Shown piece by piece: positions 28,221 to 64,000 of a DNA stretch of 64,000 nt. The notes beneath the pieces were generated by a model. The model did not search any database. It saw nothing but the letters and a program-made list of their open reading frames with translations, and was not told where the DNA came from. A program made the position numbers and the translations under genes. Position 1 is the stretch's first letter. The number at the start of each line of letters is the position of its first letter. This stretch comes from a virus, in the IMG/VR virus record IMGVR_UViG_3300044701_003953, positions 143,521 to 207,520 of that record, one strand, 5' to 3'.

Positions 28221-28688
28221 TTACTTGATACCAAAATCCATTGGCGCTGGCTTAGCGACTGGTGGAATCGTTGGTGCTGGGTCTGCCGCTGGCATTGGTG
28301 CTGGCGCTGGTGCTGTGCTCGCCGTGTTGCCACCTAGCGGTGCGCTACCACTACCAAAGCTGGGTTTAGGCATAGCTGGTGCGTCTGTGGCTGATGAACC
28401 ACCGGTGACTCCGGCCATCTTCTCTTGACCGCGGCTCCAAGCAGTGATACCAAGTACGGCACCCATAGCCATATGGAATAGACCTGCGCCTTGTAGCGTC
28501 AGTGGCTGCCATTGGCGGAATGCGTCGTTGGCCGCTTGTGTCTCCCAGAATTGGACGATGGTGAACATAACTGGAAATACTATGAAGTCGAAAGCGCAGA
28601 CTGTCATGTACATCATGGCCATCATTGGACGCCATTTTTTCTGCATCCAGTCTTCGGTTTTCTTGTCGGGTTTTGCTTGATCGCTCAT
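28221..28688 (-). CDS. Holin-like membrane protein
   Basis: 155 residues. An N-terminal basic segment (KKWRPMMAMMYM) leads into two strongly hydrophobic membrane segments (about residues 22-47 and 66-85), followed by a long Ala/Pro-rich tail. This layout resembles phage holins that open the inner membrane for an endolysin. It lies at the head of the lysis cluster. Its leader is unusual: the late motif sits at the tip of a hairpin that also covers the ribosome site GGAG. Confidence 0.7.
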   Translation of the reverse strand: MSDQAKPDKKTEDWMQKKWRPMMAMMYMTVCAFDFIVFPVMFTIVQFWETQAANDAFRQWQPLTLQGAGLFHMAMGAVLGITAWSRGQEKMAGVTGGSSATDAPAMPKPSFGSGSAPLGGNTASTAPAPAPMPAADPAPTIPPVAKPAPMDFGIK

Positions 28689-28690
28689 TG

Positions 28691-28730
28691 AATAGCTCCT
28701 TTTTTTAGTATTTACTAAAAATGGGCTATT
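28691..28730 (-). other. Inverted repeat around the holin late promoter and ribosome site
   Basis: AATAGC at 28691-28696 pairs with GCTATT at 28725-28730, and between them TACTAAAAA-like and TTTTTAGTA arms fold further. The ribosome site GGAG (28699-28696) lies inside one arm and the AGTAAATA late motif at the tip. Confidence 0.6.
28709..28716 (-). promoter_or_regulatory. T4-type late promoter motif AGTAAATA before the holin gene
   Basis: 20 bases before the holin ATG. It is part of a near-perfect palindrome TTTAGTAAATACTAAA. Confidence 0.55.
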
Positions 28731-36265: not shown

Positions 36266-36955
36266 TCAGTGGGTGGGTTTGAGAGCGCCGGTCTTGCTGG
36301 CCAAGATGAGTTGTGTGCGGTTCTGCACACCGTATCGTCGAATGATGGCCGATACATGACCTTTGACGGTGTCTTCGCTGACCTGTAAGATCTCAGCTAT
36401 CTTGCGATTGGGCAGGCCGCGTTGTGTGATCAACTTGAACACTTCGGCCTGGCGATCCGTGAGACCGATCTCTCGCTTGCGCACCACTGCTCGCTGGAGT
36501 TCGGGTTTGACCACGATGCTGGGCCAGTGGCTTTCACCGCGGGCCAGAGTCTGATATGCTGTCACTGAATGTTCAGCATCAAAGAATCGCATGCCCGGAA
36601 TCACGCCTAGAACATCGTTGCGTTTGAGTTTGGCCAAGAGATCGGCGTCCAGGAGTTCGGGTACTACCACAGCGATGTCCACCCGCTGGCGCTCGGCCAC
36701 GAAGCGCGACAACGATGACAGCATGCTCAACACTTCGTCGATCATCATGTCATTGCGTTCCAGACAGTCCAAGCGGAACACCACCAAGGCGTCCTCGGGC
36801 TCTTCGAGCTGGCGCATGAGATTGGGCCAGCCGGCTGTGATGGTTATGGCGATGCCTACCGCGGCATGATGGTCGACCACACGCTGGATAGACTCCAACT
36901 CGACCTCAGAATCGGTGCTGGGCGAGAAGTAAATGATTTTTCGGGATTTGGCCAT
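36266..36955 (-). CDS. LuxR/NarL-type transcription regulator
   Basis: 229 residues. The C-terminal helix-turn-helix (about 168-222) reads LTDRQAEVFKLITQRGLPNRKIAEILQVSEDTVKGH in pieces, the classic LuxR/NarL four-helix unit. The N-terminal part resembles a receiver domain fold, but no clear phosphoacceptor Asp and Lys pattern is visible, so it may be a pseudo-receiver. It lies directly upstream of the TctA operon in the same direction. The gene is less AT-rich than its neighbours. A sigma-70-type promoter sits against the ATG with no ribosome site. Confidence 0.85.
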   Translation of the reverse strand: MAKSRKIIYFSPSTDSEVELESIQRVVDHHAAVGIAITITAGWPNLMRQLEEPEDALVVFRLDCLERNDMMIDEVLSMLSSLSRFVAERQRVDIAVVVPELLDADLLAKLKRNDVLGVIPGMRFFDAEHSVTAYQTLARGESHWPSIVVKPELQRAVVRKREIGLTDRQAEVFKLITQRGLPNRKIAEILQVSEDTVKGHVSAIIRRYGVQNRTQLILASKTGALKPTH

Positions 36956-58352: not shown

Positions 58353-61352
58353 TTACCAAGTATCGCTTCCCCATGCCACACGCCGCCAGATATCGGTGAC
58401 ACCATCGTAGTCAGAGGTACAGTAGTAGTGATAGTTGGCGTCATTTGCGATCATACCTGTGACATCACCTGCTTGTCCTAGGCTGGTCACGGGAACAGTT
58501 GTTACTTTAGAAACTTGATCGATTAGTGCTACAGCAGTACCAGATACCAAGAGTTCTCCAGTGGATGTGACTGCTAATGCGTTGGCAGGGGCGTCTTGGT
58601 CAAACGTCAACCATGCATGACCGAGAGCGTCGTTCTTGAAGATACCAAATCGTGCATGTTCGGTGGTGTCGCTGGTATTGCTGCCAGCACCAATGCCGTC
58701 GTTCCAATCCCATTGCAGAGAAGCAGTTCCAGAAATATTGTCGTTGCCATACGTGATAGCGACACCAACAGTGGGTTCGCTGTCATTGACTGATCCGATA
58801 TGTAGAGTCAAACCTGGGTTGCTTTGTTTGATACCGACTCGATCGTTCATGACGATTTCGCCTGCACCATTGGCATCAATGGTGATGCTACTATCCGTAG
58901 TGGATACACCAATGGTGTTGTTGGCGAAGGTAAAATTGCTGGTAGGCTTGTTGACGAGATCGTTGTAGTCACCGCTGGTGGCTACGGTTGCTAAGACTGG
59001 AGCACCAGCGAGACTGGAATACTGACCATCAAAGGCATCGGTGATTCCATAGCCATCAAGAGTGGATGGCAAACCAGTGAGTTTTGCGAAGGCCAATTCT
59101 GAATCTGCGGTGAGATATGATCCCAGATCTGAGATCTGGCTTTCTGTGATAGAGATGTTGGCCTGATGTTGCGTGACGCTAGAAGAACTGACGTAAGAGT
59201 CAGGTACGGTAGCCCAAGTCACTGCGGCTGTGAGATCATTGGTTTCTGTATAGGATGTGAGATAGTTAGCGTCGTTGACAAAAGAACTTACATTAGTCGG
59301 CAGATCTTCGAGATCGAGGTAACTGCCCGAAGTGGCGACTGGCGCTAAAGATACAGCATCGACCTTGCCAGCGACGTCGCTGGCTACTAGATAACCTGCA
59401 TCGTTGCTGAACACACTGACTACCGAAGGGATAGTCGGTATCGTGGGAAGATTATTTAGATCATTATAGTTATTAGTTGTAGCAACAAGAGATAAATCGG
59501 CTATGTTGGCTTTGAGTGCTAATCCACTGGTCGCGGATGCAGAAAGATTAGTGATGGCATTGTTGAGGTTGCTGTCGGCTCCCTGGAATGCAGCTACTAT
59601 TTCTGCTAGTGAATCGAGTGCGGCCGGATCGACATTGTTGGTAATATTATCAATCTGATCTTGTAGCTCTTGGTCAGCCGAGGATCTCTGTGACGCTTCG
59701 TCATCTAACGACGATTGTGTCACCAAATCCTGTGGAATTTCTTTGAGTTGGTTATAATATCCTGAAAATGCCTGTCCATCACCAAAAATGATGCTTTGCC
59801 CGACGATCAATGAGTTGTTAGTCGTTATGTCACCGGCATTGTAAAGAATAGCAGTAGGATCTTCAGAGAGTATGCTGTAACGATTTTCGATCACAGAAGT
59901 ACCCAATGATCTCGCCCACGAATTTGAACTATTGCTACGATAAGGCAGATAAAGTCCTGCGGCATTTTTTACCGTAGCTGCACCGGTGGAGTTGTCAGTC
60001 AATATAGATGGTACAAATCCAGCAGCAACATCCACTATGGAATCCTCGTCGCTGGTTGACATCAACTGGGCTCCAGCGATAAATCCCACTAGCATTCCTT
60101 TGTCGGTGTCGGTGTCTCCGGTGGTCGTGGTGTCGATTACATCTAGCGCACCAGTGGTAGGTTTAGCGAATGCGAAAGATGAACCTCCCGATAGTTGGCT
60201 GATCGTACCTTTTCCGATGGCACTAGCTGAAAATGCTGTTCCTGATATCGTAGCAAACTTAGTCCATGCGTCCCAAGTTTGGCCATCTAGTATAATGTCA
60301 ACTGTTGAGTTGAAACCTCTTAGTCTGTCATACTTAGTAAGATCTTCAGTGACACGCACTTGCGTGACGAAACTATGACCAATTTCGGTATAGTTTTGTG
60401 TATTTGTAGAACCGTTGCTGACTAAATCTTTAGCTGTTACAAATAATGCACCAACAGGATCGTAGGTCTTGAAAAAAGTATCGCTGTAAGATGTTCCTTC
60501 GCTAGAGACATCAAGAGAGGCTCCGTTGGTTATCACCAACCGACCTTGCTGATCGATCGTGACGAAATTTCCCTGTTGGGCGATTATATCTTCGACTTCA
60601 GTTCGATCAACTTTGTCTGCGAGCGCCTGATCAATGGCCTCTACTGTTGATATGCTGGCCTTGGTCGCAAGTTCGTCGATTATGTCATTGACTGTTGATG
60701 TGTTGGCCTTGGTCGCAAGTTCGTCGATTATGTCATTGACTGTTGACACATCGGCCTTGTTGTTTTCTAATAGAGTGTCATTAGCCTGCAAAGATGCAAC
60801 ATTGGCAGATATAGCAGTTATTTGTATTTGTAAATCAGTGTCGCTAGAAATCCTAGCGGAAATTTCTTCATCAAGGCCAGAACTGGTTCCGATACTCAAG
60901 GACTCGATGCTGCTTTCAACGGCATAAATTCGGCTGGAAATATTGGCTGCGAATCCAGCATCGTCATTTAATGCCTCTGCTAGTTCTCTGAGGCTGTTTA
61001 GGTTGCTGGGTGCTGAGTCGATCAGATTGCTGATCGATGTTCCGATCTTGTCATCGATCACAGACGATAGCAGAGATACTTTATTATCGGTGTAGTTCCT
61101 TGATGCAGCGATAGCGTACTCGGCTTTGGTGTCTGCGTATCCTTGAGATGCCGCCCCAGTGATATCCGATACTGTGAGTAAAACATCGCCAACTTGGTCG
61201 TTTACGCTCATCACCGCAGAATTAACAGTGATTTCAAATCTGCTTTCTGCTATGTTAGCGAAATTCTGGTTGATCTTTTCAAAGGCCCTACGCAGAGAAT
61301 CGCCGTCCCCGGTACTGTTACCTGAACCGATGTTTACGTTCGAAAATGACAT
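58353..61352 (-). CDS. Long tail fibre protein
   Basis: 999 residues. Repeats typical of fibre shafts: TVNDIIDELATKA twice in tandem, then NDLNNLPTIPTIP, VFSNDAGYLV and SFVNDANYLT as found in phage fibre/collar repeats. The N-terminus shares a FEKINQNFANIAES segment with the 298-residue fibre protein. The ribosome site AAAGGATGG is part of an inverted repeat around a late promoter. Host-recognition fibre likely; receptor unknown. Confidence 0.8.
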   Translation of the reverse strand: MSFSNVNIGSGNSTGDGDSLRRAFEKINQNFANIAESRFEITVNSAVMSVNDQVGDVLLTVSDITGAASQGYADTKAEYAIAASRNYTDNKVSLLSSVIDDKIGTSISNLIDSAPSNLNSLRELAEALNDDAGFAANISSRIYAVESSIESLSIGTSSGLDEEISARISSDTDLQIQITAISANVASLQANDTLLENNKADVSTVNDIIDELATKANTSTVNDIIDELATKASISTVEAIDQALADKVDRTEVEDIIAQQGNFVTIDQQGRLVITNGASLDVSSEGTSYSDTFFKTYDPVGALFVTAKDLVSNGSTNTQNYTEIGHSFVTQVRVTEDLTKYDRLRGFNSTVDIILDGQTWDAWTKFATISGTAFSASAIGKGTISQLSGGSSFAFAKPTTGALDVIDTTTTGDTDTDKGMLVGFIAGAQLMSTSDEDSIVDVAAGFVPSILTDNSTGAATVKNAAGLYLPYRSNSSNSWARSLGTSVIENRYSILSEDPTAILYNAGDITTNNSLIVGQSIIFGDGQAFSGYYNQLKEIPQDLVTQSSLDDEASQRSSADQELQDQIDNITNNVDPAALDSLAEIVAAFQGADSNLNNAITNLSASATSGLALKANIADLSLVATTNNYNDLNNLPTIPTIPSVVSVFSNDAGYLVASDVAGKVDAVSLAPVATSGSYLDLEDLPTNVSSFVNDANYLTSYTETNDLTAAVTWATVPDSYVSSSSVTQHQANISITESQISDLGSYLTADSELAFAKLTGLPSTLDGYGITDAFDGQYSSLAGAPVLATVATSGDYNDLVNKPTSNFTFANNTIGVSTTDSSITIDANGAGEIVMNDRVGIKQSNPGLTLHIGSVNDSEPTVGVAITYGNDNISGTASLQWDWNDGIGAGSNTSDTTEHARFGIFKNDALGHAWLTFDQDAPANALAVTSTGELLVSGTAVALIDQVSKVTTVPVTSLGQAGDVTGMIANDANYHYYCTSDYDGVTDIWRRVAWGSDTW
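60656..60746 (-). repeat. 48-bp in-frame direct repeat in the fibre gene
   Basis: 43 bases at 60656-60698 are identical to 60704-60746, 48 bases apart. They encode tandem STVNDIIDELATKA units, so the fibre shaft can lengthen or shorten by 16 residues by recombination. Confidence 0.9.
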
Positions 61353-61355
61353 ATT

Positions 61356-61391
61356 ACCATCCTTTTATATACTATTTATCGAAAGGATGGT
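61356..61391 (-). other. Inverted repeat flanking the late promoter of the long fibre gene
   Basis: A perfect 10-base inverted repeat: ACCATCCTTT at 61356-61365 and AAAGGATGGT at 61382-61391. The minus-strand copy near the start contains the ribosome site AAAGGATGG; the other copy lies upstream of the late promoter. Confidence 0.7.
61373..61380 (-). promoter_or_regulatory. T4-type late promoter motif GATAAATA before the long fibre gene
   Basis: 20 bases before the fibre ATG at 61352, between the arms of the inverted repeat. Confidence 0.65.
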
Positions 61392-61436: not shown

Positions 61437-61988
61437 TCAAGTACGTTGATTGATCACGGACCAATCCATGATCTTCCAGAGTGAATCGATATATTTTTTC
61501 TTGTCGCTGTGATAATCCATCTGGAAAGCGTGTTCCCACATGTCGATGATGATGACTATGCCGTCGCTGGGAATACGATGATTCTTGATTTGTTTGAGCT
61601 TGCCTTGACGATTCACATACACCCAGCCCGACCCTTGTACTTTCATGCACTCTTCAGTGATGGCTTTTTTGAAAGTGACAAAATCACCATACTCCCTGTT
61701 GATCATGTCTAGGATTCGCCCAGTGGGGCGATTACTGGCTGAACGTGTTTTGAACTGGCTAAAATAAAGATCGTGTAAGCGGGCCCCGGCTTCGTTGAAA
61801 GTGCAATCACCTTCCTTGGCATTGTAGCGGGTGACATAGCCCTTGTAGAGTTTTCCATAATGCAGTTGCATCAAGGCCGAACTCAATACAGGAGTGAAAC
61901 TGTTCATGCCCCCAGGCAGTTTGACCATTTCCAGGGTTTGGGAGTTCTTTGATTCTAGTAGATCAATGATTTCACGTATTTCATTCAT
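61437..61988 (-). CDS. sodB: Fe/Mn superoxide dismutase
   Basis: 183 residues with the SOD metal ligands His43 (QLHYGKLYKGYV), His72 (LHDLYF) and the DMWEHAF motif with Asp149 and His153 (DxWxH), plus GGMNSFTPVLSSAL before. About as long as bacterial SodB (192). It dismutates superoxide in the cytoplasm. The ATG lies 7 bases after an AATAAATA late motif without a ribosome site. Next to infA. Metal preference (Fe or Mn) cannot be told from these residues alone. Confidence 0.85.
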   Translation of the reverse strand: MNEIREIIDLLESKNSQTLEMVKLPGGMNSFTPVLSSALMQLHYGKLYKGYVTRYNAKEGDCTFNEAGARLHDLYFSQFKTRSASNRPTGRILDMINREYGDFVTFKKAITEECMKVQGSGWVYVNRQGKLKQIKNHRIPSDGIVIIIDMWEHAFQMDYHSDKKKYIDSLWKIMDWSVINQRT

Positions 61989-61994
61989 GATCTA

Positions 61995-62213
61995 TTATTT
62001 ATTGCGATATGTTATACGTCCTCGATTGAGATCGTAAGTACTCATCTCAACGTCAACTGTATCGCCCATGAGTATCTTGATGTTATGCTGTCTTAGTTTG
62101 CCGCCCAAATATGCGACTATGACGTGTTTGTTTTCTAATTCCACCTTGAACGTAGCATTAGGTAGTAGTTCAAGAACAGTACCAGTTACTGTGAGAGTGT
62201 CATCTCTTGCCAT
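61995..62213 (-). CDS. infA: Translation initiation factor IF-1
   Basis: 72 residues, the same length as E. coli IF-1. The OB-fold pattern is typical: [22 protein letters not shown] then [18 protein letters not shown] and [10 protein letters not shown] (in parts), ending [11 protein letters not shown]-1 binds the ribosomal A site during initiation. A late motif and AGGAG lie upstream. As a phage gene it may bias initiation toward leaderless or phage mRNAs; this is an inference. Confidence 0.9.
61996..62003 (-). promoter_or_regulatory. T4-type late promoter motif AATAAATA placed against the sod start
   Basis: 7 bases (ATAGATC) lie between the motif and the ATG at 61988. It overlaps the infA stop codon region. 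Confidence 0.6.
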
Positions 62214-63861: not shown

Positions 63862-64000
63862 GCTTCTTCTCCTCTTCGTACTGTCGGATCATACGGTAAA
63901 CAGGTTCCATGCGTTCGGCGAACACTTCGGGAACCGCGTCTGACGCTCTTTGCATATCCCACTCTGTTGGGTAGTGTCGCAACAGTCGTCGGGCTTCGCC
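63845..64000 (-). CDS. C-terminal part of an unrecognised protein, cut by the window edge
   Basis: The frame is open from the right edge to a TGA at 63847-63845 and gives 51 residues, ending MIRQYEEEKKHDDAS. Upstream is REARRLLRHYPTEWD-like sequence with helical character. The start lies outside the window. It overlaps the next gene by 17 bases. Confidence 0.55.
   Translation of the reverse strand, partial: GEARRLLRHYPTEWDMQRASDAVPEVFAERMEPVYRMIRQYEEEKKHDDAS

Follow-up and report, generated by a model that had tools for sequence, protein, structure and literature searches.

A perfect inverted repeat with a late promoter in its loop precedes the gene for a 999 aa virion/tail-fibre-type protein in the final 64 kb of a virus record of 207,520 bases (this stretch of 64,000 nucleotides, analysed at its full length, is referred to as the window). 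The most probable function of this hairpin, to which we assign a probability of about 0.78, is that of a promoter-gated translational lock on the fibre-type gene. RNA arriving from the upstream genes would contain both arms of the repeat, form a 10-bp hairpin and bury the Shine-Dalgarno (SD) sequence of the fibre-type gene. RNA initiated at the late promoter would begin near position 61367, without the 5' arm, and would leave the SD open. With the SD free in the late RNA alone, translation of the fibre-type gene would be confined to the transcript of its own late promoter. Such promoter-gated hiding of the SD had been proposed in a preliminary description of this DNA, and both the predicted folds and the covarying arms reported here support it. 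The mechanism itself is already known from bacteriophage T4.

The window carries DNA polymerase and clamp loader families of the T4 type, and a homologue of the late sigma factor gp55 (phrog_234, E 9.9e-24, at G000:C1 69574-69873) is encoded elsewhere in the genome; the gp45 clamp family, phrog_223, was not found in the genome. In the jumbo phage CBB, a gp55-like sigma factor and an ATAAATA late motif in front of structural genes have been described, and gp45 was not detected (PMC5259590). In the genome analysed here, the TAAATA hexamer peaks 25-29 nt before start codons (12 of 212 genes fall in that bin); across the whole window, the 7-mer ATAAATA is not enriched (13 occurrences, with 10.4 expected). 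A 229-aa protein encoded at 36266-36955 on the minus strand, distinct from the gp55 homologue, shows weak matches to sigma factor families (phrog_1740, phrog_3282).

Anatomy and predicted folding of the leader

Read along the minus strand, the leader has the order ACCATCCTTT-c-GATAAATA-gtatata-AAAGGATGGT-aat-ATG. The two arms (61356-61365 and 61382-61391) are 10 nt each, 100% complementary and separated by a loop of 16 nt. The 5' arm, or anti-SD, ACCATCCTTT (61382..61391, minus strand) lies 5' of the late promoter box and would be present in read-through RNA only. The box, GATAAATA (61373..61380, minus strand; core TAAATA, 61373-61378), is located in the loop between the arms. The 3' arm, AAAGGATGGT (61356..61365, minus strand), includes the SD sequence AAAGGA and ends 3 nt 5' of the start codon, with the ATG at 61352. 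A perfect 10-base repeat around the late motif, with the SD within one arm and the other arm 5' of the promoter, is what the preliminary description had claimed, and the sequence bears it out. The transcript start claimed near 61367 likewise coincides with the minus-strand position predicted from the core at 61378-61373 and the T4 spacing of 6 nt past the last A.

The controlled open reading frame occupies 58353..61352 on the minus strand and begins with a DGTGDPLRxAFxKINQNF domain that is also present in proteins of cultured phages annotated as baseplate wedge or tail fibre connector. A tblastn search with the whole 999-aa protein against cultured phages gave no match. For this gene, 'fibre' is a weak label, given that the PHROG family matches are weak and partial.

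Upstream of the fibre-type gene, and co-directional with it, are genes for an Fe/Mn superoxide dismutase (SOD; 61437..61988, minus strand) and translation initiation factor IF-1 (61995-62213, minus strand). A terminator scan of the minus strand found no intrinsic terminator from SOD/IF-1 to the fibre-type gene. That such read-through RNA exists, when it is made and how it affects the protein are, like the start site, inferred from T4. The presence of a phage-encoded IF-1 beside a translation-controlled gene may be a coincidence. Late-like boxes precede both IF-1 and SOD and could themselves feed late-time read-through RNA; the lock might then act within the late period, with output tied to the gene's own promoter. 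Elsewhere in the window, 12 sigma70-type promoter matches (TTGAC..TATAAT like) lie between 4.2 and 51.7 kb on the minus strand, against none on the plus strand, and several share a GTTGAC...TATAATATAAG-like form. These minus-strand matches likely represent the early/middle promoter class. From 51.7 kb to the contig end (window position 64000), the minus strand contains no match to the strict sigma70-type pattern.

Folding of the two transcript forms, which the preliminary description had called for, favours the lock. In the long transcript, a 10-bp stem is predicted over AAAGGATGG, and exposing the SD-AUG region is predicted to require 11.5 kcal/mol in read-through RNA vs 2.4 kcal/mol in RNA starting at 61367 and approximately 6.9 kcal/mol when the upstream part is shuffled. 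A scan of start positions places the transition between 61391, at and above which starts cost about 11 kcal/mol, and 61387, at and below which the site is freed at a cost of about 3 kcal/mol or less (2-3.2). The fold of the 55-nt RNA (-12.7 kcal/mol, z -2.86) was equalled by 4 of 200 shuffles, and the helix formed with the SD region by 1 in 3000 shuffles of the upstream part. The opening cost taken alone is weaker evidence at this site (p 0.03-0.04). The hairpin has no match above the gathering score among Rfam families. As in the gated ribosome-binding site (RBS) hairpins of T4, the SD falls in a predicted stable helix, and the late transcript, from its predicted start, lacks the 5' strand of that helix.

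Conservation of pairing among relatives of the fibre-type gene

Relatives were collected as viral contigs with homologous N-termini. The layout of arms around a late box, spelled in different letters, is kept in L017 (AAATCTGTCCTC/GAGGATAGATTT), L060 (ATAACCTATAGT/ACTATAGGTTAT), L008 (GTAACCTA/TAGGTTAC), L058 (ACCCAGT/ACTGGGT), L064 (GAGGTTTC/GAAACCTC), L065 (AAATACCCTA/TAGGGTATTT), L042 and L035. Between L008 and L060, both sides of a pair have changed (G-C to A-T). In the fibre set, own arms pair better than arms swapped between loci (-8.0 vs -5.9 kcal/mol; z -5.3; 0 of 20,000 permutations). Of 30 candidate partners for the window site, its own 5' arm ranks first. Comparison of the arms across related phages, which had been suggested as a check, therefore came out in favour of the lock: the arms vary among relatives yet remain complementary.

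The strict helix cut-off was passed by 8 of 43 fibre clusters, compared with 1.0 among swapped and 2.4 among shuffled controls. A strong stem is missing from many relatives; the device thus recurs at the fibre-type gene without being universal there. In the close relative L014, a change weakens the stem, and in a large related group, the MILSNVNIG type, the late box is present but no hairpin surrounds it. Members of this group (L023, L024, L036, L041, L044, L054 and others) share TATAATACAGTAAAAC immediately 5' of the start codon; this may be a promoter of host type, with which a lock would serve no purpose. No significant association was found in the fibre set between the lock and a co-directional upstream gene (7/33 vs 1/10, p 0.66). 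A direct DNA pattern search of viral contigs for the arm plus promoter returned 4 chance-like matches only, and no relatives emerged when the SOD gene was used to probe synteny.

These comparisons bear on two other explanations of the repeat. It could have arisen by chance and do nothing at the fibre-type gene, as the modest significance of the window's opening cost and the many stemless relatives might suggest; we hold this to be very unlikely, in view of how rarely shuffling matches the helix, the rank of the window's own arm among the 30 and the homologous genes that share the layout with different arms. Alternatively, the repeat could be a DNA operator at which a dimeric repressor or activator binds around the late promoter. 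The perfect symmetry around the promoter is what such a site would show, the arms being true halves of a DNA palindrome. A protein-binding site would be expected to keep its sequence, so the drift of the arms speaks against an operator: arm sequence, spacing and register all vary among relatives while pairing is kept. The 3' arm is also tied to the SD, and internal mismatches lean towards G-U over A-C (17 to 7, p 0.06), which points weakly to RNA. Overall, we regard the operator explanation as highly improbable.

Putative locks at the predicted holin and neck adaptor genes

In the same genome, a clear lock was found in 3 of 32 genes preceded by a late box, namely, the fibre-type gene, a holin gene and a head-tail adaptor (neck) gene. 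With just these clear cases, a rule covering the late genes of the genome was rejected. One further candidate (G000 30304+, p 0.045) is doubtful, since the last part of an upstream coding frame overlaps its box.

The second lock, AATAGC..TTTTTAG-TAAATA-CTAAAAA..GGAGCTATT (28691..28730, minus strand), precedes the predicted holin gene (28221-28688, minus strand; phrog_3427). Here, the opening cost is 1.3 kcal/mol in late RNA, 8.9 in read-through RNA and about 4 in shuffled sequences (p 0.015-0.035). Most holin relatives have no late box (it is present in 2 of 48), and they do not conserve the hairpin. The arrangement recalls the control of T4 lysozyme.

The adaptor lock (G000:C1 26191, minus strand; L094:5519-6391, minus strand), in front of the gene for the head-tail adaptor Ad2, a member of the T4 gp13 family (phrog_211), is arguably more striking than the fibre-type case. 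Dozens of diverged phages share it, and its arms covary strongly among them (relatives L181-L260; cultured L265 and L268-L275). For the 48 loci with an analysable box, median opening costs are 1.8 kcal/mol in late, 14.0 in read-through and 4.9 in shuffled RNA, with p <= 0.05 in 34. Own arms again outperform swapped arms (30 clusters, z -9.7, 0 of 20,000 permutations). In a fixed-register alignment of 12 adaptor sequences, two-sided changes are found at 12 of 16 pairs, and the covariation score is 0.600, compared with 0.233 in shuffled controls and no more than 0.19 after sliding. Some adaptor leaders (L188, L189, L191, L200, L214, L218) contain, besides the outer SD stem, an inner stem tight around the box, such as GTTCAA-TAAATA-TTGAAC or TGTAG-TTATAAATA-CTACA.

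Among cultured jumbo phages, the neck lock is found in GAP32, CBB, XbC2, XaC1, EJP2, PHA46, fENko-Kae01 and pEa_SNUABM_19, all eight with opening costs of 17-23 kcal/mol in read-through vs 3-6 kcal/mol in late RNA; PA5oct has a weaker lock (2.6 late, 9.4 read-through, p 0.015). The neck genes of Atu_ph07 and Vibrio phage 2.275.O have no lock. In both phages, the gene next upstream is encoded on the other strand; two cases are too few to count.

The adaptor set is also where a third explanation finds some footing, namely, that the hairpin, with the late promoter in its loop, serves mainly to terminate or insulate the operon upstream, and that occlusion of the SD is a by-product. A T tract follows the stem in cultured jumbo phages and in part of the adaptor set (GAGGTGCTTTTTTATG, AGAGGATTTTTTTTATG), and at some neck genes of jumbo phages this explanation fits. 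It does not fit the window site, where the 3' arm is followed by AATATG, with no T tract, and where the terminator scan does not call the hairpin. Moreover, among 48 strong helices, at least 5 T in the next 8 nt occur in only about one-fifth, whereas the SD is included in 44, and many loops, at 15-33 nt, are long for a terminator. We therefore consider termination unlikely to be the main role of the hairpin and retain the translational lock as the preferred reading.

Relation to T4 and biological significance

Hairpins that hide the RBS until a late transcript frees it are documented for T4 genes e, soc, 49 and I-TevI (PMC3014915), and the same control is documented for segB, mobE and I-TevII/III (PMC2988022); the T4 precedent that the preliminary description had cited for e and soc is therefore correct. 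Several of these cases, known from experiment or inference (PMC3014915, PMC2988022), served to calibrate our predictions. With the same code, the late and read-through opening costs (kcal/mol) are 0.4 and 9.7 for soc, 2.7 and 16.5 for 49, 0.3 and 13.4 for I-TevII, 1.0 and 15.7 for e, and 5.7 and 16.1 for segB, and the values at the window site fall in the range of these known cases. No lock was detected by this code at the T4 late genes 6, 9 and 18. The divergent T4 pair 4/53 also shows a fold, which arises because two late promoters face each other.

The closest parallel is T4 e, in which, as in the window, the SD is in the 3' arm, the late promoter lies where the 5' strand is encoded and the late RNA lacks that strand (PMC3014915). 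The two differ in that e is a lysis gene whose promoter box itself forms part of the 5' arm, whereas the window hairpin guards a virion/fibre-type gene and has its 5' arm just upstream of the box. In T4 soc, 49, I-TevI/II/III and segB and in Aeh1 mobE, too, the RBS is locked in early/middle read-through RNA and freed in late RNA (PMC3014915, PMC2988022); the genes and arm sequences are different, and the window case is a computational prediction. The split-RBS hairpins of T4 38 and 25 are likewise located at the translation start of late genes (PMC3014915). In contrast to the window, where the SD is inside the stem, they lie between SD and AUG and aid translation.

We found no report of this device on a fibre-type gene or a jumbo-phage neck gene in a literature search conducted mostly outside subscription journals; with few of those covered, the absence of reports is weak evidence of novelty. 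It appears reasonably likely that, in a large set of jumbo phages and relatives of T4, the loop-promoter hairpin is a standing rule that silences particular virion genes outside their own late transcript, above all the gp13-family adaptor and sometimes a fibre gene. If so, it would constitute a conserved layer of assembly timing that is absent from T4's own gene 13, upstream of which there is no TAAATA box. The benefit of blocking neck-protein synthesis from read-through RNA then becomes a concrete question for cultured jumbo phages such as CBB and 121Q. The covariation shows that the device is built anew time and again, the arms changing in sequence while the promoter stays fixed, and a type of control familiar in T4 mainly from lysis, accessory and homing genes would extend to the virion genes of its relatives, both cultured and uncultured.
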